A stretch of DNA of 64,000 nucleotides from Sulfurospirillum barnesii SES-3. GTDB taxonomy: Bacteria; Campylobacterota; Campylobacteria; Campylobacterales; Sulfurospirillaceae. The DNA lies in contig NC_018002.1 of assembly GCF_000265295.1 (NCBI RefSeq), positions 2,108,001 to 2,172,000 of the forward strand, written 5' to 3'. This document shows positions 24,261 through 57,983 of the stretch, piece after piece (position 1 is the stretch's first letter; each line of letters opens with the position of its first letter). The position numbers and the translations under genes are program-made. The notes below the pieces were generated by a model. It was not told where the DNA came from. It was given only the letters and a program-made list of their open reading frames with translations, and did not search any database.

Positions 24261-25673
24261 ATGAAAATTGCTTTTGAGAACCTTGGGGCAGCAGAAATAG
24301 GTGAAATCGAATTGGCAAACCTTACCATTGTTTGTGGTGAAAATAATACTGGAAAAACTTATATAACATACCTCATTTACAACTTGTTGAGCAATTGGAA
24401 ACAATTTGTAGACATAGACTTAGAAGTGGAATTAATGCAACTCTTACAAGAAGGAACTGTTAAAATAGATTTGCAACTCAAACTTATTGACAAATGGGAT
24501 GAAATCTGCCAAGAAACATTGAAAAAATTTTTAAATAATTTTCCTGAAATGCTGGCTTCTAATAGTGGATTATTTGATAAACTTAAACTCAGCGTAACTC
24601 TTCCACTTGACATACAATGGAAGGAACGAGAATTTAAAAATGAATTTAGAGGTGAAAAAGGGAATTTATTAGTTGCAATGACAAAAGCTGCAGGATCAAC
24701 AGAACTCGAACTAGCAGCTCCAAAATCAGAAGAGTCAATATCCCGTTCAATGTTACCATTAGGAAGCTTTATAGAAGACCGACTATTCTCAATGGTTTTA
24801 GAAGATACTATCCCCAATGTTTTTATTGCAAGCACAGAAAGAACAGGTGCTACAACTTTTAGAAAACAATTGAATATGGCTACTGGAAATCTTATCGATT
24901 TATTAAGTCAAGTGCACAAAGATGGTGAGAAGAGTATCACTCCAAATAAAATTTTTGAAACTATCTATGGTAAACAAGAATATGCTCTTCCTGTGCGACA
25001 TAATGTGAGATTTATCAACCAACTTCCTGATAGCAATGCAGAATTTGGTGAATTGCACAAAGCCGACCAAACCCTCCTGCAAAAATTCGAGGGAATTGTT
25101 GGGGGAACTTATGTAACAAATAAAGAAGGTATAACCTACTTTCAACCAAAAGGAACATATCTCAAACTTGGACTTGGCGAAGTATCTAGTTCCGTGAGAT
25201 CATTACTTATTCTGTGGTATTGGCTTAAATATTTTGCAAAAAAAGGAGACATGTTAATTCTTGACGAACCAGAACTAAATTTACATCCTTCAAATCAAAG
25301 ACGATTAGCAAGATTTTTAGTTACTCTTGTTAATCATGGATTAAAAGTATTTATTACAACACATAGCGATTATATCGTTAAAGAATTTAACACCCTGATT
25401 ATGCTAAATCAAGACTTGCCATCGTTTGAAAGCATAAGACAAAAGTACCCTGAATATACAATAGACGATAAATTGTCAGCTAGCAAAGTAGCTCTTTATA
25501 TGACACGCGAAGAGTTATTGATGAGAGCTGGAGGAAAGCGAAAAACAAGAACAAAAACACTTAAAAAGGCAAATATTAGTCCAACACTTGGAATTGAAGC
25601 TGAAAGTTTTGATGAAACCATAGATGAAATGAATGCAATGCAAGAAGCTATTTATTACAATATGGAAGCTTGA
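24261..25673 (+). CDS. AAA/ABC-type (OLD-like) ATPase of candidate defence cassette
   Basis: 470 residues. Walker A GENNTGKT is at 26-33, a degenerate signature GEVSSSVRS near 306-314, Walker B MLILDEPELNLHP with catalytic D335-E336, and a switch His in TTHSD (H368). This is the AAA_15/AAA_21 SMC-like ATPase arrangement found in OLD, Septu (PtuA), Gabija and retron-associated effectors. The middle section (about 60-300) is not recognised. No TOPRIM domain is present; the C-terminal tail is basic (GGKRKTRTKTLKKA). It overlaps or abuts the nuclease-like gene, suggesting one complex. A role in phage defence is inferred from architecture and the mobile context. Confidence 0.8.
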   Translation: MKIAFENLGAAEIGEIELANLTIVCGENNTGKTYITYLIYNLLSNWKQFVDIDLEVELMQLLQEGTVKIDLQLKLIDKWDEICQETLKKFLNNFPEMLASNSGLFDKLKLSVTLPLDIQWKEREFKNEFRGEKGNLLVAMTKAAGSTELELAAPKSEESISRSMLPLGSFIEDRLFSMVLEDTIPNVFIASTERTGATTFRKQLNMATGNLIDLLSQVHKDGEKSITPNKIFETIYGKQEYALPVRHNVRFINQLPDSNAEFGELHKADQTLLQKFEGIVGGTYVTNKEGITYFQPKGTYLKLGLGEVSSSVRSLLILWYWLKYFAKKGDMLILDEPELNLHPSNQRRLARFLVTLVNHGLKVFITTHSDYIVKEFNTLIMLNQDLPSFESIRQKYPEYTIDDKLSASKVALYMTREELLMRAGGKRKTRTKTLKKANISPTLGIEAESFDETIDEMNAMQEAIYYNMEA

Positions 25674-25675
25674 AA

Positions 25676-26266
25676 ATGAGTATTTTAGAAGCTCTTAAAC
25701 AAATTATTAAAAGTAGTGCTATCCTTTGTGATGGGCAACAGCAGTGTCATGCGATACTTGAAGAGAGAAATGAAGCTAAATTAAAAAAATTAACTCTTTC
25801 AGACTTAAAATCTAACCACTTGGTCATTGGACTTGATGATGCAAGGAAATTAGTATGCGATGCAAGGATTACTTGTATGTCACCTATATTTTCCACAACG
25901 AGTGCTTATGATATTAATAGGGCTTGTGACGCATTATTAATTGAAGAAAAAGAGGCAGGAAAATGCAAAATTACTTATATTGAATTGAAATCAGATTCTC
26001 CATCAGGATTTGTAAGTCAGTTTATAAGCTCAAGTTGTTTTGTATCTTACCTAAAAGAAATATTGATAAAATTATGTAATATTCACGTTGAAAGCATAAC
26101 AGAAAAATTTTTGATTTTTCACACCGATCCAAATGATGGAAAACCCTCTTTAAGAAAAACAACTACAACTAAAAAGAACATACCTGCTAATGCAAATAGC
26201 CCTAAAAATCCAAAAAAAATAATTGTTAGAAATGATGATACAAAAAGTATTATGGAAATTTGGTAA
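25676..26266 (+). CDS. Probable PD-(D/E)xK nuclease partner of the ATPase
   Basis: 196 residues from ATG 25676, with GGAAG upstream; an in-frame TTG at 25670 is a weaker start. The segment from D85 (RACDALLIEE) to E103-L-K105 (TYIELKSD) has the spacing and strand pattern of a PD-(D/E)xK nuclease core. The C-terminal 45 residues are Lys/Thr/Asn-rich and probably bind nucleic acid. Its start is 2 bp beyond the ATPase stop. The stop codon TAA is the first three bases of the right-hand direct repeat, so the reading frame ends exactly at the cassette boundary. I do not recognise a named family. Confidence 0.68.
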   Translation: MSILEALKQIIKSSAILCDGQQQCHAILEERNEAKLKKLTLSDLKSNHLVIGLDDARKLVCDARITCMSPIFSTTSAYDINRACDALLIEEKEAGKCKITYIELKSDSPSGFVSQFISSSCFVSYLKEILIKLCNIHVESITEKFLIFHTDPNDGKPSLRKTTTTKKNIPANANSPKNPKKIIVRNDDTKSIMEIW

Positions 26267-26287
26267 ACGGAGAGATTATCTCCTAAT
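26264..26287 (+). repeat. 24-bp direct repeat, right copy
   Basis: Exact duplicate of 24092-24115. It supplies the stop codon of the nuclease-like gene and is followed by a hairpin that would suit the flavin reductase gene if the cassette were absent. Confidence 0.9.
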
Positions 26288-26289
26288 TT

Positions 26290-26307
26290 GGTAAAAAACT
26301 TTTTACC
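26290..26307 (+). terminator. AT-rich hairpin followed by T-run
   Basis: GGTAAAAA, a 2-bp centre, TTTTTACC, then TATTTTTAAT. The stem is 8 bp but AT-rich, so termination is probable rather than certain. It directly follows the right repeat and was probably the flavin reductase terminator before insertion. Confidence 0.55.
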
Positions 26308-26350
26308 TATTTTTAATCTTTTCTCCTTTATAATGTCCAAAATGCTGTTG

Positions 26351-26365
26351 GTCTAAGGCTTAGAC
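26351..26365. promoter_or_regulatory. Palindrome GTCTAAGGCTTAGAC upstream of double-cubane operon
   Basis: A perfect 7-bp inverted repeat around one base, about 16 bp downstream of a TATAAT hexamer (26329-26334). A nearly identical sequence, read on the minus strand as GGTCTAAGGTTTAGACA, sits in front of yedF at 49193-49207. A shared operator for a dimeric regulator is likely. Confidence 0.55.
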
Positions 26366-26451
26366 ATACATGAAGTAGCACTCTTTTTTCTGCTTTTCTT
26401 CTTTACATGTAACCCTCGCACAGCATCATTTTTCATCATAAAAGGAACAAC

Positions 26452-27771
26452 ATGGGTGTTGAGCAACACAAAGAGTTATTGGGCAGTATTGGTGTGGACG
26501 TTGATCGTCACGCAAAAATGATGGCAATGGGCTTAGACGCCTATAAAGCGCAGTTTTTAGGACAACCTAATCGTCCTAAAGGTATGGCGTATTTTGACTG
26601 GTTTATGAGTGAGATTCAAGGGCAGAGAATTGCTGAAATCAATCAACTTCGTGCAGAGAAAAAACCAGCCGTGGGGACGTTTTGTATCTTCGTTCCTGAA
26701 GAGATTGTGGTGGGTGCTGGCGGAGCCTGTTATGGGCTTTGCGGTGGTTCAAACGCTACGGTTGCCGATGCTGAGACGGAGCTTCCTCGCAATATCTGCC
26801 CTCTTATCAAATCCGCACACGGCTTTAAGTTACAACGCACCTGTGCTTACACCCAATCAAGTGATTTTATCTACGGTGAGACCACCTGTGAAGCAAAGAA
26901 AAAAACATGGGAAATCTTAGCCAAACACCATCCTGTGCATGTGATGAACATTCCCCACATGAAACGTGAAAAAGACCTCAAAATGTGGCAAGAAGAGATT
27001 GCGGAGTTTAAAGAGCATATTGAGCAAGTGAGTGAAAAAAAACTAAGCCTTGCTGAGATGATAGAAGGGGTGAAAAAAGTCAATGCCAAACGCTCAGCCC
27101 TTCAAAGGCTCGATGCCCTTCGTGGTATGAACCCTGATATTATGCCTATTAGCGGAAAAGATTCGCTGTTTATTACGCAAGTGGGGTTTATGGACGACAT
27201 TGAGCGTTACACGCAAAAAGTGAACGAACTCTGCGATGAACTTGAAGAGCGTGTGAGAGAGGGGGTCAGTGTCTTTCCTGCTAACACGCCTCGTATTATG
27301 ATTTTAGGCACTCCTTTAGCGCCGCCAAACTGGAAAATTCATACCGCCGTTGAGAGTACAGGTGGGGCGATTATCAACGAGGAGAGCTGTATTGGGCATC
27401 GCTATTACAAAGACAACGTCGATGTTGAGGGTGTGACAAGCGAAGATGAACTCTATGCACGCTTGATGCAACGCTACTCCAAAATTGACTGTGCGTGTTT
27501 CACCCCCAACACAGGTAGAACCGAGAAAATCGTGCAAATGTACAAAGAGCGCAAAGCCGATGGTGTCATCTACTACACCCTCTCTTTTTGCCACACGTAC
27601 AATGTTGAAGCGCACCTTGTCACCGAAGCACTTGCCAAAGAGGGCATACCATGCCTTGTCATCGAATCTGACTACTCACCAGAAGATGCAGGACAGATTA
27701 AAACCCGTGTGGAAGCCTTTTTAGAGAGCATCAGCTTTAAACAAAAAGCCCAAGCGTTCGCAAGTAAATAA
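26452..27771 (+). CDS. Double-cubane cluster protein (2-hydroxyacyl-CoA dehydratase-like)
   Basis: 439 residues of the HgdB/FldB-like family with many conserved cysteines in the first half (C93, C97 in CYGLCGGS; C116 in PRNICPLIKS; C131 in RTCAYTQSSDF; C146) and C-terminal CACFTPNTGRTEK. A single such subunit next to a dedicated activator, with no partner dehydratase subunit or CoA transferase, matches the double-cubane [Fe8S9] cluster proteins described in anaerobes, which reduce small molecules such as acetylene in an ATP-dependent way. The physiological substrate is unknown. Start after AAAAGGA; the stop overlaps the activator's start by one base. Confidence 0.85.
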   Translation: MGVEQHKELLGSIGVDVDRHAKMMAMGLDAYKAQFLGQPNRPKGMAYFDWFMSEIQGQRIAEINQLRAEKKPAVGTFCIFVPEEIVVGAGGACYGLCGGSNATVADAETELPRNICPLIKSAHGFKLQRTCAYTQSSDFIYGETTCEAKKKTWEILAKHHPVHVMNIPHMKREKDLKMWQEEIAEFKEHIEQVSEKKLSLAEMIEGVKKVNAKRSALQRLDALRGMNPDIMPISGKDSLFITQVGFMDDIERYTQKVNELCDELEERVREGVSVFPANTPRIMILGTPLAPPNWKIHTAVESTGGAIINEESCIGHRYYKDNVDVEGVTSEDELYARLMQRYSKIDCACFTPNTGRTEKIVQMYKERKADGVIYYTLSFCHTYNVEAHLVTEALAKEGIPCLVIESDYSPEDAGQIKTRVEAFLESISFKQKAQAFASK

Positions 27772-28529
27772 TGTTTTGGGGCGTGGATATAGGCTCGACC
27801 TATACAAAAATCATCGGTATCGGAAGAGAACGGGAGATTGTGCATAGCGCAGTTATCCCCACCATCTTCAATCAAGATGTTATCGTGGGCGAGTATTTGG
27901 CAGATAAAGAGGTCAAAATGCTCGTCGCCACGGGCTATGGGCGTTACATGTTGGAAGAATCGCATGGTGCTCCCGTGATAAGCGAAATCAAAGCCCACGC
28001 CAAAGGGGCTTACTTTTTTGAACCCGATGTTGCTACAGTGATTGATTTGGGTGGACAAGATAGCAAAGTGATTAAAATGGGCGAACAGGGCAGTTTCACC
28101 GACTTTCGCATGAACGACAAATGTGCCGCAGGGACGGGCAAATTCCTAGAAATCGCCGCCAATCGTTTGGGGCTAGAGATGCAAGACTTTGCCAAAGCAG
28201 GCTTTGAGCACGACAAGGAGCTCACCATCTCCAGCATGTGCGCCGTGTTTGCAGAGTCTGAGGTCATCTCTCTTATCGCCAAGAAAGAGAGTTTGGCGAA
28301 CATTTGTTATGGCGTACACGAATCCATCGCCTCAAGGCTTGCTTCCATGGCTCGCAAATTTGTCGTCAAAGAGAATGAAACCATCGTTTTCACAGGCGGC
28401 GGTGCGCTTAATCCTTTCTTGCATCATATGTTGGAACTTAAATTAGAGCGGACTATCGTCATTCCCAAACACCCTCAACTCATGGGTGCTGTTGGTGCGG
28501 CGTTGGCGGGGTTGGAGGTGGTGGGGTAA
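27771..28529 (+). CDS. ATP-dependent activator/reductase of the double-cubane protein
   Basis: 252 residues of the BadF/BadG/HgdC family: ASKHA nucleotide motifs GVDIGSTYTKI at the N terminus, DLGGQDSKVIKM in the middle, and the two cysteines that bridge a [4Fe-4S] cluster in the homodimer, C118 in NDKCAAGTG and C157 in SSMCAVFAESE. It hydrolyses ATP to drive electrons into the partner encoded directly upstream. Overlap of one base (TAATG) shows coupled translation. Confidence 0.9.
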   Translation: MFWGVDIGSTYTKIIGIGREREIVHSAVIPTIFNQDVIVGEYLADKEVKMLVATGYGRYMLEESHGAPVISEIKAHAKGAYFFEPDVATVIDLGGQDSKVIKMGEQGSFTDFRMNDKCAAGTGKFLEIAANRLGLEMQDFAKAGFEHDKELTISSMCAVFAESEVISLIAKKESLANICYGVHESIASRLASMARKFVVKENETIVFTGGGALNPFLHHMLELKLERTIVIPKHPQLMGAVGAALAGLEVVG

Positions 28530-41900: not shown

Positions 41901-41992
41901 GTCTAACCTCCTTACATGAACTTTCATTCATTATAAAGAATACTAACTTTATTCTCACTAAAGCAAATCTAGGTTACAATATTTTCCCTTTG

Positions 41993-42092
41993 CGGGGGGT
42001 ATGTGACTCTGGTGTGCACCACGGCCTTCAAAGCCGATTGGAGGGGCGGTTGACCGTCTCTTGGGAGGTTCGATTCCTCCACCCTCTCGCCA
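41993..42092 (+). tRNA. selC: tRNA-Sec (anticodon UCA)
   Basis: A tRNA-like gene of about 100 bases. The anticodon loop CTTCAAA (anticodon TCA at 42028-42030) is closed by CGGC/GCCG. There is a long variable arm (GGCGGT pairing with ACCGTC), a T arm GGAGG-TTCGATT-CCTCC, and an encoded G-CCA end (42089-42092). The 8-nt acceptor strand ACCCTCTC pairs with the G-rich 5' strand through several G-U pairs; the first base is uncertain by one. A UCA anticodon with a long extra arm identifies selenocysteine tRNA. selD and yedF lie 5-7 kb away. Confidence 0.92.
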
Positions 42093-47407: not shown

Positions 47408-47437
47408 TTACATGTAAGGATTTTTCCTTACATGTAA
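47408..47437. terminator. Bidirectional hairpin built from two TTACATGTAA copies
   Basis: TTACATGTAAGGA, a TTTT loop and TCCTTACATGTAA form a perfect 13-bp stem between the convergent DASS and selD genes. Each arm contains a copy of the iterated palindrome (47408-47417 and 47428-47437). The right copy also provides the selD stop codon (TAC ATG TAA, ending FYM). Confidence 0.7.
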
Positions 47438-48459
47438 AAGAGTGGTTTGTCCTCTTTTTCAAACACCTCAGCGATAATAGCACTGTAACTAAGCCCCTCA
47501 TCAAGCAGTTCTTGCAAAAGTTTTGGCGCATCGTTTTGGGAGACGGCTATTAAAAGTCCGCCCGAAGTTTGTGCATCGTAGAGCAAAATTTCATCTTTAT
47601 GTGGCACTTTAGCTTCTACATATGCACTCACATAACTTTTGTTATTGTACGCACCTGCTGGGATAATCCCCATATCCGCCATCGCTCTGGCTTCCTCTAA
47701 AATAGGAATCTTGTTCACCCAAAAACCAATGCTCACTCGATGAAAACTCATCTCATAGGCATGACCTAACAGACCAAAACCTGTAATATCTGTACACGCA
47801 CTTACATCGTATTTTTGCATAATGCGTGAAGCTTTATGATTGAGCGTGGCTAAAATAGACGCCACTTTTTCTACCACACTATTCTCAAGCATATCCGCTT
47901 TAATGGACGTGGTTAACACACCCATTCCCAAAGGTTTGGTTAAAATGAGCACATCTCCCACCCGAGGCGTGTTGTTGCGGTAAATCTTTAAAGGATGCAC
48001 AAAACCTGTGACACTCATGCCATAGGTCATCTCAGGCGCTTCTATCGTATGCCCCCCAATAATCACCCCACCGCACTCATTGACCTTACTCTGTCCGCCT
48101 GCTAAAATCTCTTTAAGCACGCTTCGTGGTTGATGACAGCCATCAAATCCGACAATATTCATTGCAGTAGCGACTTCACCACCCATAGCGAACACATCGC
48201 TTAGCGAGTTTGCCGCGGCAATTTGCCCATACACAAATGGGTCATCCACCACAGGGGTGATAATATCGACCGTTTGCACAAGGGCCCGCTCTTCATCGAG
48301 GTAATAGACACTGGCATCATCACTCTCATCCATTCCTACCAGTACCTTCTCATGCCTGCAGTTGAGACCACCTATCGCTTCTGTGAGGTCTCCCGGACCC
48401 AGCTTGGCAGCACAACCCGCAGCTTTGACGTACTTGGTCAATTTTGCTTCGTTGTTCAT
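47428..48459 (-). CDS. selD: Selenophosphate synthetase
   Basis: 343 residues from the ATG at 48459, preceded by a TAAGG ribosome site. The catalytic pair is Cys and Lys in AAGCAAK (a Cys codon TGT, not UGA). Gly-rich loops and metal-binding Asp include DDASVYYLD, GGHTIEAPEMTYG and TSGGLLIAVS. It makes selenophosphate from selenide and ATP for selenocysteine (and possibly selenouridine) synthesis. It lies downstream of yedF and in the same window as selC. The stop codon comes from a TTACATGTAA copy. Confidence 0.94.
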   Translation of the reverse strand: MNNEAKLTKYVKAAGCAAKLGPGDLTEAIGGLNCRHEKVLVGMDESDDASVYYLDEERALVQTVDIITPVVDDPFVYGQIAAANSLSDVFAMGGEVATAMNIVGFDGCHQPRSVLKEILAGGQSKVNECGGVIIGGHTIEAPEMTYGMSVTGFVHPLKIYRNNTPRVGDVLILTKPLGMGVLTTSIKADMLENSVVEKVASILATLNHKASRIMQKYDVSACTDITGFGLLGHAYEMSFHRVSIGFWVNKIPILEEARAMADMGIIPAGAYNNKSYVSAYVEAKVPHKDEILLYDAQTSGGLLIAVSQNDAPKLLQELLDEGLSYSAIIAEVFEKEDKPLFYM

Positions 48460-48574
48460 TGTATACCTTAATTTCAACTTCTTGAGCATGAAATGTTCAC
48501 GAAGTAGTACGAGCCTTCCGCTGAGGAAAACCCAGTGTTAACGTAGTTTGAAAAGCTTTGCTTTGAAAGCGTTA

Positions 48575-49165
48575 TTATAAAGATATTGTACCCTCTCCAC
48601 CAAAGAGCATCTCAATGGTACCATAGGCATTGCCGATTTTTCCCACTTTAAGCTTCTCACTCACCCCATAAAATTCCAAACAGACCCCGCACGAATAGAT
48701 TTCAACGCCTTTGGCCTCAAGCGCTTGGAGCACTTCAATGATAGGAGAATTTTCATCAGCAGTGGTTAAATACACAGCAGTGTTCACACAAATAATGCGC
48801 TTTGGAATTTTAGGCAATTCTAAAGCTGATTTTAAAAAACCGACAATAAGCTTAGCGCCTAATTCGCCCTCGCCTACTGTATTGCTTTTAAGAAAAAGCG
48901 TTTTATCTAAAAACTGCTCACTTTTTTCCTCACTAAGCACCTTACATGTAAAGCCTTTAATAATAGAAACAAGTGTTTTTCCATCAGCCATTGCCTCCAC
49001 ACGTGCTTCAAAGCCACCGTTTTGTGCAAAACGCACCACATTTTCTTTGGAAGCTAGGTTATCCACCACAACCTCTAAAATGGAATCATTGGGCAAAGCT
49101 TCTAAGGCTTTTTTGGTTTGTAATACGGGCTCAGGACACGCTAAGCCACTGCAATCAATTTTCAT
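48575..49165 (-). CDS. yedF: YedF selenium-metabolism protein (TusA-like + DsrE-like)
   Basis: 196 residues from the ATG at 49165, which has AAGGAAA upstream. The N-terminal SirA/TusA domain has the active-site CPEPVLQTKKAL; the C-terminal domain (RIICVNTAVYLTTADENSPIIEVLQALEAKGVEIYSCGVC) is DsrE/DsrF-like with a CGVC pair. This fusion is the 'YedF' protein associated with selD, thought to handle reduced selenium or sulfur. The 115-bp gap before selD contains no gene. A palindromic operator lies 28 bp upstream. Confidence 0.9.
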   Translation of the reverse strand: MKIDCSGLACPEPVLQTKKALEALPNDSILEVVVDNLASKENVVRFAQNGGFEARVEAMADGKTLVSIIKGFTCKVLSEEKSEQFLDKTLFLKSNTVGEGELGAKLIVGFLKSALELPKIPKRIICVNTAVYLTTADENSPIIEVLQALEAKGVEIYSCGVCLEFYGVSEKLKVGKIGNAYGTIEMLFGGEGTISL

Positions 49166-49192
49166 GAATTTCCTTTTGTACATAATAGCATT

Positions 49193-49207
49193 TGTCTAAA
49201 CCTTAGA
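49193..49207. promoter_or_regulatory. Palindrome GTCTAA-N3-TTAGAC upstream of yedF-selD
   Basis: On the gene's strand it reads GGTCTAAGGTTTAGACA, sharing all but one base with the site at 26350-26366 before the double-cubane operon. It sits 28 bp upstream of the yedF ATG, near a TATTAT -10-like sequence, a position suited to repression. Confidence 0.5.
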
Positions 49208-49267
49208 CCTACAAGAGCAGAAGAGAGATAAATATCTCTCAGAATAAACAGACAATGATGTAAAAAT

Positions 49268-54972: not shown

Positions 54973-57771
54973 CTACGCTTTTTCTACGCGGCATAGACCC
55001 GTTTTTGTCTCGGGAATTTGCGTCATAATATCATAGCCATAACCAACCACGGTGTTAGCCGACTCACCTGTTGCGTAAGGTTTTGTACCCGCTGGATAGT
55101 TCGCACTTAAATCTTTACCTTGGAATTTACCCATATAGTGGAATGGCATAAAGATAGTTTTTTCATCCACGGTGTAAGAGAATTTCGCTTTCACATGAAT
55201 GCGTGTTCCTTCAACGCCATACACCCACACCATTTCCCCATTACGAATACCAAGATTGAGTGCTGTATTGGGATGAATATCAATAAACATTTCAGGATTA
55301 AGCGCACTGAGGTATTTTGAAGCTCTTGTCTCTGCACCTGCTCCACTGTGGGTTACCAAACGACCTGTGGTCATGATAAGTGGGAACTCTTTGGTGTAAT
55401 CTTTTTTCGTTTGAGCAGAGATATATTTCGTATCAACCCTAAAGTGATCTTTTTTATCTGGATAGGTCGGATACGCTTTGATCATCTCAGCACTTGGCGA
55501 GTGAATAGGCTCTCTGTGAAGTGGAATTTGATCTGGGAAGTTCCACGCTTTAGCTCTTGCTTTTCCATTACCATATGGGCAAAGTCCTAATGCAAGACCT
55601 TTTTTAACAAGGATACCACTAAGATCGGTCGCAAAGTTTTTACCTGCAACGATTGCTTTCTCTTCTTCGCTAAATGTTGCACCTGCTTTTTCAAGCATGT
55701 CTAGGGTTAATGCACCATGTCCTTTAGCAATCGCTGAACCTTTTGGCGCACTGCCCTCACCTGCAAGAAGGCTGACGCCATCTTTTTCAACGCCCCAGTT
55801 CAGACGAAATCCCATACCGCCATCACTCACAGGTTTGTTGACATTGTACAAGATTGGGCTACCGCTGTGGGTTTCATTCCAACACGGCCATGGAAGTCCG
55901 TAGTATTCACCTTTCATAGGTCCCATACCCGCAACGCTGACCTCTTCAAACATATGCCAGTTTTCTTGGTGTTTTTTAAGTCGCTCAGGCGTGTGTCCAC
56001 CCATACCAATAGAGCGAATACCCCGTGCAATCTCACGTGTAGCATCTTCTGGCCACTCAAATTTACCTTTACCATCGCCTAAGGCTTTGGTGTATTCATC
56101 ATAAAATCCTAAGCGTTTAGCTAATTCAAACATAATGTCGTGGTCGGTTTTACACTCAAATTGTGGTTCAACCACTTTGCTTCTCCATTGAACATTACGT
56201 CCTGTTGCTGTCACAGAACCGCTGGTTTCAAATTGTGTTGCCACGGGGAGAATAAAAAGGTTATCTTTTCTATCGGTTAAAATAGCCGCATCATTCATAA
56301 ATGGATCGGTGATGACTAAAAGCTCTACATTATCAAGCCCTTTTTTCACCTCTTGAAGTTGTGCGGTAGAAGTAATTCCACAGCCCATCACCACAAGGGC
56401 TTTTAGGTCAGTTCCGCCATTGTAAATGGCGTCATTTTTCATAACACCCTCAGACCAACGTGCCAGTGTAAAACCATTTTTTGTCATCATTTCACTATTT
56501 TTAAAACGCCCTTTGATCCACTCATAATCTGTTTTCCAAACATTTGAAAAGTGTTTCCATGCAGGCTCACCTAAACCATAATAGCCAGGAAGTGTCTCAG
56601 ATGAACACCCCATATCAGAGGCACCTTGAACGTTATCATGACCTCTTAGAATGTTACAGCCACCGCCTTCAACACCCATATTGCCTAAAATCATCTGCAA
56701 GATTGGTCCTACACGGGTATTTCCCGTACCAATACTGTGTTGTGTCCAACCCATGGTCCACACCAAACAGCCTGGTTTTGAGGTAGCAAAAAGTTTGGTC
56801 ACTTGAATCAACTCGGTTTCACTCACGCCTGTTACCTTAGAAACCACATCAGGTGTCCATTTTTCAGCCTCTTTAAACACATCTTCGTAGCCAAATACAC
56901 GCTCTTGCAAATACTTTTTATCTTCCCAACCGTTTTTCAAAATCAGATGAATCATTCCGTAAATAAAGGCAATATCGGTACCTGAGCGTAAACGCACGTA
57001 CATGTCCGCTTTAGCAGCCGTTTTCGTAAAGCGAGGCTCAACCACAATCAACTTTGTGTTGCTACGCTCTTTGGCTTTTAAGAAGTGTTGGAAACCAACA
57101 GGATGTGCTACCGCTGGGTTGGCGCCCATAATTAAAACCGCTTTTGAGTTTTGAATGTCTCCTAGTTGGTTGGTCATCGCACCATAACCAAAGGTATTGG
57201 CAACACCCGTTACGGTTGAGCTATGGCAAAGTCGTGCTTGATGATCGATGTTATTGGTACCGTAAAATGCGGCAAATTTACGTAAATAATACGCTTGCTC
57301 ATTGCTCATCTTCGCTGAGCCTAAAAACATTGCCGCATCAGGACCGTGTTTTTCACGAAGGGCTTTTAATTGTGCACCAATTTTTGTATAAGCATCTTCC
57401 CACGAGATACGTTTCCATTGACCGCCCACTTTTTCCATCGGGTATTTTAAGCGTACATCGGAGCGAATCATATCGATCATGCCCGCACCCTTACAGCAAT
57501 GTCCCCCTAAACTTAATGGATGATCTTGTGCCACTTCTTGACGAACCCAAACGCCATTGTGTACTTCTGCTAAAACACCACAACCAACCGAACAGACGTT
57601 ACAGATGGTTTTGACCATTTTTGAACCTGGGTAAGGGTTTTTAACCTCTTCCTCGGTTGCGGCTCTCGTTACTTTTTCACTGGCAAATCCAGAAGTTGCT
57701 CCAAAAGCACCCGCAATGGCTGCCATTTTAAGAAAACTTCTTCGCCCTACTTTTGCATTTAATTCACTCAT
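54973..57771 (-). CDS. fdhA: Formate dehydrogenase catalytic subunit, cysteine form
   Basis: 932 residues from the ATG at 57771 with AAGGAG. A twin-arginine signal (GRRSFLKMAAIAGAF) directs it to the periplasm. A [4Fe-4S] site CNVCSVGC with a later CC, and the molybdopterin domains (IMGANPAVAHPVGFQ, MGWTQHSIG, ILRGHDNVQGASDMG) are present. The metal ligand lies in HQARLCHSS and is encoded by TGC (57226-57228), so this is a cysteine enzyme, not a selenoenzyme, although selC and selD are present nearby. The neighbourhood of tungstate uptake genes suggests W or Mo. Confidence 0.94.
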   Translation of the reverse strand: MSELNAKVGRRSFLKMAAIAGAFGATSGFASEKVTRAATEEEVKNPYPGSKMVKTICNVCSVGCGVLAEVHNGVWVRQEVAQDHPLSLGGHCCKGAGMIDMIRSDVRLKYPMEKVGGQWKRISWEDAYTKIGAQLKALREKHGPDAAMFLGSAKMSNEQAYYLRKFAAFYGTNNIDHQARLCHSSTVTGVANTFGYGAMTNQLGDIQNSKAVLIMGANPAVAHPVGFQHFLKAKERSNTKLIVVEPRFTKTAAKADMYVRLRSGTDIAFIYGMIHLILKNGWEDKKYLQERVFGYEDVFKEAEKWTPDVVSKVTGVSETELIQVTKLFATSKPGCLVWTMGWTQHSIGTGNTRVGPILQMILGNMGVEGGGCNILRGHDNVQGASDMGCSSETLPGYYGLGEPAWKHFSNVWKTDYEWIKGRFKNSEMMTKNGFTLARWSEGVMKNDAIYNGGTDLKALVVMGCGITSTAQLQEVKKGLDNVELLVITDPFMNDAAILTDRKDNLFILPVATQFETSGSVTATGRNVQWRSKVVEPQFECKTDHDIMFELAKRLGFYDEYTKALGDGKGKFEWPEDATREIARGIRSIGMGGHTPERLKKHQENWHMFEEVSVAGMGPMKGEYYGLPWPCWNETHSGSPILYNVNKPVSDGGMGFRLNWGVEKDGVSLLAGEGSAPKGSAIAKGHGALTLDMLEKAGATFSEEEKAIVAGKNFATDLSGILVKKGLALGLCPYGNGKARAKAWNFPDQIPLHREPIHSPSAEMIKAYPTYPDKKDHFRVDTKYISAQTKKDYTKEFPLIMTTGRLVTHSGAGAETRASKYLSALNPEMFIDIHPNTALNLGIRNGEMVWVYGVEGTRIHVKAKFSYTVDEKTIFMPFHYMGKFQGKDLSANYPAGTKPYATGESANTVVGYGYDIMTQIPETKTGLCRVEKA

Positions 57772-57785
57772 CGATCTCTCCTTTC

Positions 57786-57983
57786 TCACAGAGCAGACTT
57801 ATAATAGTCTTCCCATGCCTGAGTTTTTTTGTAGGTAATCTCTTTCTTTTTCGATTTACCTACGACAACACCACCTGAAGCACTAGGCATTTTCTCAGCA
57901 CTCAGCAACGGTGAAACACCTATGGCTACGCCAGCTGAGCCTAACACAGCGGTTTTAAGAAAACTGCGGCGCATCTTTGTCAT
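57786..57983 (-). CDS. Formate dehydrogenase-associated small TAT-signal protein
   Basis: 65 residues beginning MTKMRRSFLKTAVLGSAGVAIG, a twin-arginine signal, then a short hydrophilic tail with KKKEITYKKTQAWEDYYK. It matches the small 'formate dehydrogenase region TAT target' proteins usually encoded just before fdhA. AAGGAGG precedes the ATG. Function unknown; a chaperone-like or assembly role has been assumed. First gene of the fdh operon. Confidence 0.85.
   Translation of the reverse strand: MTKMRRSFLKTAVLGSAGVAIGVSPLLSAEKMPSASGGVVVGKSKKKEITYKKTQAWEDYYKSAL

Follow-up and report, generated by a model that had tools for sequence, protein, structure and literature searches.

The window, a 64,000-nucleotide stretch of the Sulfurospirillum barnesii SES-3 genome, encodes a double-cubane-cluster reductase at 26452..27771 on the plus strand (NF040772, 456.8 bits, cut-off 350), followed by an acyl-CoA dehydratase activase-type ATPase at 27771..28529 (+; TIGR00241, 220.4 bits). 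On the minus strand, yedF is located at 48575..49165 (TIGR03527, 198.9 bits; 196 amino acids from the start codon shared in the genus) and selD at 47428..48489 (TIGR00476, 358.1 bits). These family matches confirmed the identities that an earlier note on this DNA had given to the double-cubane, activase, YedF and SelD genes. A plasmid search showed that members of the double-cubane family occur elsewhere, at identities below 60%. The tRNA-Sec gene selC was identified at 41992..42088 (+; Rfam RF01852, 55.2 bits, cut-off 47), which shows that the organism decodes Sec; selC itself is not under the leader described below. It is flanked by a transglycosylase-type gene and a universal-stress-protein gene, and selB is located elsewhere (G000 2184708). 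The formate dehydrogenase alpha gene at 54973-57789 (-) carries no in-frame TGA, while those at 834974 and 2175864 elsewhere in the genome each have one; Cys and Sec forms of formate dehydrogenase stand side by side in this genome. Upstream of the double-cubane leader, the region 24261-26266 (+) encodes two proteins that are perhaps a defence pair: one of 470 aa, which matches retron effector ATPases weakly (E 2e-7, well short of the cut-off), and one of 198 aa without any family match.

Palindrome 1, GGTCTAAGGCTTAGACA, was read from the window sequence at 26350-26366 (+), and palindrome 2, GGTCTAAGGTTTAGACA, at 49193-49209 (-). The pair had been described in the earlier note and does exist, with the second site lying one base away from the 49192-49208 given there. 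When the whole window was searched, the exact core GTCTAANNNTTAGAC (pattern GTCTAA-N3-TTAGAC) was found only at 26351-26365 and 49194-49208, where 0.0024 exact cores per window are expected under a first-order Markov model. Sites with up to two mismatches were at an ordinary level (3 found vs 2.29 expected), and perfect 6-3-6 inverted repeats are common in the window (29, six arms occurring twice), so that the window by itself is moderate evidence. The complete genome (one contig, 2,510,109 bases) contains two exact cores. Across 24 genomes of the genus, 59 exact cores were present in 23, with 1-4 in each, and the reversed pattern used as control gave 0 in 24/24. The claim that chance agreement was unlikely is borne out by this conservation: copies are few, none lies at a random place, and the orthologous leaders keep the element across the genus. 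One of the one-mismatch sites in the genome, at 2224947, is a third family member; those at 704725 and 2105171 were absent from the matches in this genome, at E up to 1, of a covariance model (R2) built from 46 genus matches.

All 59 exact genus sites lie on the same strand, in the 5' leader directly ahead of one of four operon types. A scripted count (n = 58) gave 23 leaders of double-cubane reductase and activase genes, 19 of transglutaminase operons, 13 of yedF-selD and 3 of MetN-like ABC operons, and the remaining site (L074) precedes a transglutaminase fragment that the script missed because the gene is cut at the contig edge. In the transglutaminase operons, a TAT-signal transglutaminase-like gene comes first, with MerT-like and HMA genes behind it. 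Such a transglutaminase-MerT-HMA operon also follows the third member of the S. barnesii genome, which lies outside the window (G000 2224892-2224969, minus). Three extra genus matches of R2 precede rhodanese genes. The regulon exceeds the two operons first noted. In G005 and G012 (L052, L069), the double-cubane gene is present in tandem, each copy behind a leader of its own, and a third leader precedes a divergent MetN-like ABC operon, which indicates that the regulon grows by leader copying.

In the genus leaders, the palindrome corresponds to P2, one of two hairpins (P2 and P3) that stand with a closing helix, P1, in an RNA of about 80 nt. The double-cubane operon leader RNA occupies 26342..26426 (+), as supported by the R2 match at 26343-26424 (67.5 bits), the fold, the P1 arms and covariation in relatives. 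On this strand, P1 is formed by arm pairing of 26342-26348 with 26420-26426, P2 by 26351-26365 with the loop GGC at 26357-26359, and P3 by 26367-26372 with 26406-26411 plus inner pairs. A -10-like hexamer, TATAAT, at 26329..26334 (+) lies 22 nt before P2 and predicts a transcription start at P1; it was not among the predictions of a strict promoter scan. The hexamer was found at -22 from P2 in 33 of the 45 genus leaders and at -19 to -23 in 41 of them. P2 has 5-6 bp and a loop that begins with G, mostly GG; in the third member of the S. barnesii genome it contains one G.U pair. Ahead of yedF, the P2 hairpin (GUCUAAGGUUUAGAC) is at 49194..49208 (-), where P1 and P3 are not evident and the R2 match is weak (E 0.024). 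The genus yedF leaders found via the core all have P2 (13/13) with no evident P1 or P3 and without this spacing of -10 and P2; thus, these leaders may need only P2, or they may have a different transcript. A leader peptide, ATG-CTG-TTG-GTC-TAA, that could be read by eye across P1/P2 of the double-cubane leader is not favoured, since relatives such as L181, L188 and L192 lack this reading, again by eye.

The arms of P1 differ between the operon types: GCUGU/ACAGC in double-cubane leaders, ACUGU/ACAGU in ABC leaders, and GCACG/CGUGC or GCACA/UGUGC in transglutaminase leaders. At least five contiguous P1 pairs were found in 42 of the 45 genus leaders, though in one of these (L058) an extra hairpin separates P1 from P2 and so displaces it; the three leaders that fell short are of the GCAGUG type and have a mismatch within the helix. 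Arms from the same sequence paired in 33/39 cases and arms swapped within a class in 481/654. Swapping between classes broke the helix, with 0/340 for a transglutaminase 5' arm with a double-cubane 3' arm and 24/340 for the reverse, and 0/40 for an ABC 5' arm with a double-cubane 3' arm; a double-cubane 5' arm with an ABC 3' arm paired in 33/40, through a G.U pair. A covariance model built from 19 transglutaminase leaders only (R1) recovered the double-cubane leaders with E-values between about 1e-3 and 7e-8.

Double changes among the 45 distinct genus rows were seen at 5 of 6 pairs in P1, 2 of 7 in P3 and none in P2. The covariation score was 0.246, compared with 0.090 +- 0.008 for shuffled and at most 0.071 for slid alignments, and the number of pairs with double changes was not striking (7 vs 5.7 shuffled; 58/500 shuffles as high). 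This alignment and that of 28 further leaders were both fitted to the model, and the genus covariation therefore leans in its favour; the arm swap is independent of the alignment. Free-energy z-scores of eight leaders were mixed (-3.30, -2.31, -1.18, -0.95, -0.88, -0.56, -0.17 and -0.10), and the three helices were missing from three of the eight predicted folds (L184, L194, L095). P1 duplex energies beat shuffles for the transglutaminase class only (mean z -1.75; double-cubane -0.21). The 3' arm of P3 in double-cubane leaders coincides with a palindrome iterated genome-wide, TTACATGTAA.

Of 398 genomes of the order screened with model R2, 57 matched at E <= 0.01. Outside the genus, 25 of the 37 matches, in 23 genomes, are leaders: 14 of double-cubane and activase genes, 3 of selD (one encoding a SelD with an early in-frame TGA), 2 of PstS-like ABC operons, 2 of the operon just after selD, 2 of yedF plus one second-contig copy, and 1 of a rhodanese operon. 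The other 12 (L200, L204-L214) are placed inside genes or overlap them and look like chance matches. Together with a match of 33.1 bits (L271), they indicate that a score of less than about 35 bits should be judged with the neighbouring genes. The Sulfurospirillum-type double-cubane gene (E 1e-131 to 1e-138) was preceded by the leader in all 16 genomes outside the genus that have it, weakly in G128 and G224 (20.4 and 22.9 bits). Other double-cubane genes (seven f11 loci) lie directly after other coding sequence and seemingly have no leader.

A further alignment was made from 28 leaders, comprising 24 of the 25, the three genus extras and L245; the second-contig copy (L189, which duplicates L188 and is not followed by a gene) was left out of this alignment, A8. 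Double changes were found at 6 of 6 pairs in P1, 6 of 6 in P2 and 4 of 7 in P3, that is, at 16 of 19 pairs, and the covariation score was 0.427, compared with 0.156 +- 0.014 shuffled and at most 0.077 slid. The count of further pair types was less telling (32 vs 27.9 shuffled; 21/500). P2 stems include GUCUAG/CUAGAC, AUCUCA/UGAGAU, GCCUAA/UUAGGC, GUCCAA/UUGGAU, GCUUAA/UUAAGC and GUCUGA/UCAGAC, closed by loops of 2-4 nt. P3 is the weakest helix, with 160 of 186 cells paired, or 115 of 137 after removing the leaders that hold TTACATGTAA.

The earlier note had ascribed the palindrome to a DNA operator for one regulator protein. The shared control was supported, as the double-cubane operon and selenium genes have one element in common; the palindromic operator was not. 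The centre of the core on the coding strand was GGC in 39 sites, GGT in 17, GGA in 1 and GTC in 1 (n = 58), with one orientation in 58/58, and this fixed orientation argues against a symmetric operator, which should occur both ways round. The P2 spacer varies between 2 and 4 nt among relatives, and some P2 stems retain a G.U pair, as RNA allows, at positions where the DNA is no longer palindromic; neither the two orientations nor the fixed spacer of a dimeric operator was found. P2 alone would covary in a palindromic operator too, and the double-cubane P2, just past the predicted start, is in a possible operator place, but P1 and P3 also covary. Moreover, the co-occurring regulator gene that had been anticipated was not seen, since no common one stood out by eye among the neighbours of the sites. 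A shared DNA operator was rejected on the orientation, the variable spacer and the covariation of P1 and P3, and we regard a site for a symmetric transcription factor, surrounded by incidental folds, as highly improbable. Because the orientation is fixed, P1 and P3 covary and the leaders are conserved ahead of selenium-theme operons, we read the palindrome as very probably belonging to a structured leader RNA of a selenium regulon in Sec-decoding Campylobacterales.

A third covariance model (R3, 72 rows) was applied to 80 genomes, out of 145 that carry SelB but lacked a confirmed leader, and gave 16 matches in 15 genomes at E <= 0.01; one (L276) is the training-set site L245, leaving 15 independent matches. 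Thirteen of these are leaders of such genes and two (L286, L289) look like chance. The leaders precede yedF (5), transglutaminase genes (3, one about 190 nt away), selD (2), a rhodanese gene (1), a putative selenate ABC importer (TIGR04553, 390.1 bits) and yedE (TIGR04112, 487.6 bits), the last followed by YedF-like and desulfurase-like genes. No R3 match at E <= 0.01 was found in 65 of the 80 genomes, and many Sec-decoding relatives thus have no such RNA or have forms too divergent to be recognised. Upstream of one yedF (L288, 1470-1570, +), tandem P2-like hairpins, CCUAAGGUUUAGG and then GCCUAAGGAUUAGGC, were seen by eye. In a sample of 397 genomes of the phylum, two more matches were obtained, L271, which lies across a gene, and L272, a P2-like hairpin. 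The latter, AUCUAAGGCUUAGAU (near G488:C8:17197-17269, -), lies at the start of an operon leading to a TAT-signal formate-dehydrogenase-like ORF and was not counted as a member.

SelB, called at E <= 1e-60, was present in 186 of the 398 genomes of the order. SelB or SelA was found in all 23 genomes outside the genus with R2 leaders, 20 having SelB and the other three, which are fragmented, SelA. SelB occurred in 20/23 of these genomes vs 145/351 (Fisher p = 1.7e-5, uncorrected for shared ancestry), and in 5 of 11 genomes with chance-like R2 matches. Within the genus, 21 of the 23 genomes with the RNA have SelB; the draft genomes G018 and G023, with no SelB at this threshold, encode a formate dehydrogenase with in-frame TGA. 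The 99% complete genome G013, the one in the genus without the RNA, has no exact core and no R2 match at E <= 0.01, matches at E 0.036 and weaker being left aside, and no SelB, SelA, TGA-containing formate dehydrogenase or double-cubane match was found in it. A STRING table published in PMC5322559 links YedF, LysR_Se and DUF3343 to 2-hydroxyglutaryl-CoA dehydratase subunits, an activase and a transglutaminase-like enzyme, and the selenoproteins predicted in the available part of PMC13188914 include a putative mercuric transport protein and YeeE/YedE. A common redox signal is less probable, as the genes involved and the association with SelB/SelA favour selenium.

The -10-like hexamer about 22 nt before P2 suggests that transcription starts at P1, in which case the mRNA would begin with this RNA. 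Such an RNA would report selenium status and set the expression of selenium uptake and mobilisation genes, and a selenium-dependent metabolite may stabilise P1 and the P2/P3 junction, lowering expression when selenium suffices. We tentatively propose that sensing is most likely by a riboswitch with a selenium-dependent metabolite as ligand. Slightly more speculative is the proposal that the RNA itself binds a selenium metabolite such as selenophosphate with choice over sulfur, and would thereby control import, trafficking and the ATP-dependent double-cubane reductase. To our knowledge, no RNA has been described that distinguishes selenium from sulfur. In the two window leaders, no intrinsic terminator was found, and sequestration of the ribosome site by the pyrimidine stretch before P2 gave no signal in 13 yedF leaders (z -0.26 to +1.77).

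Alternatively, SelB, alone or with GTP and Sec-tRNA, would bind P2 as a SECIS-like hairpin and repress the mRNA when Sec-tRNA is plentiful, as in the E. coli selAB leader, which is bound by SelB and whose mRNA is repressed under that condition. The confinement of the RNA to genomes with SelB/SelA agrees with this, as does the apparent need for P2 only in the genus yedF leaders. Epsilonproteobacterial SECIS elements are described in the accessible part of PMC4607533 as hairpins of 5/6 bp with an invariant loop G, and P2, a hairpin of 5-6 bp with G first in the loop in 28/28 leaders, fits this description. However, a bacterial SECIS follows an in-frame UGA Sec codon, whereas P2 lies upstream of start codons and has no UGA codon context. 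The loops also differ by eye: those of the genus FdhA SECIS begin with GGU in 21/21 and mostly have 5 nt, whereas P2 has GGC in 39/58 and a loop of 3 nt in the genus. Binding to P2 would leave P1, P3 and the ACAU after P2 unexplained, and we consider control by SelB, which ranks next after a riboswitch for the sensing step, rather unlikely. Another RNA-binding protein or a small RNA might instead bind the P2 loop and couple the genes to a signal other than selenium, for instance redox state, consistent with the strongly conserved loop and with an expression platform not having been found. This is unlikely, a little more so than control by SelB, given the single metabolic theme and the link to the Sec trait. 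A GGA loop of the CsrA type was rejected as a candidate, being present in only 1 of 58 genus leaders.

In metabolite riboswitches, a closing helix with two hairpins is a known arrangement, and the leader RNA resembles them in its 5' place, its closing helix and two hairpins, its conserved loop and junction letters and its occurrence ahead of several operons of one theme. Metabolite riboswitches differ in having a defined ligand and expression platform. At the curated cut-off, Rfam 15 gave only tRNA-Sec in the whole window, and for the leader region 26200-26520 at E up to 10 it gave four matches, all below cut-off. Among the titles and abstracts of open-access papers on selenium, riboswitches, candidate structured RNAs, SelB/SECIS leaders, FdhT/FdhU and Sulfurospirillum, no such element appeared, nor any paper on a selenium riboswitch, and the available text of a riboswitch review (PMC10043782) contains no mention of 'selen'. 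LysR_Se and HrsM, as presented in the accessible part of PMC5322559, are also proposed to control selenium genes, but they are protein regulators, whereas the conserved thing here is an RNA. Leader RNAs are a known kind, and the present one is probably a new class by its structure and theme.

The selenium regulatory network is described in the same source as not fully understood (PMC5322559, in part). Bacterial selenium sensing is largely open, and a conserved RNA heading many selenium-supply operons in one order offers a direct handle on it. The presumed shared control also ties poorly understood proteins to selenium acquisition, among them the double-cubane reductase and the periplasmic transglutaminase with its MerT/HMA partners, and likewise the rhodanese-VTT-Fe-S operons and the ABC importers.

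The sequence TTACATGTAA is a highly iterated palindrome, with 40 copies in the window (e.g., at 26403, 48942 and 49720) vs 0.11 expected, 26 of them inside ORFs. The S. barnesii genome contains 1230 copies vs 6 for the reversed control. Across the 24 genus genomes, 49-1496 copies were counted, with few in G009, G022 and G017, and the controls gave 0-10. The palindrome recalls HIP1 or DNA-uptake repeats.
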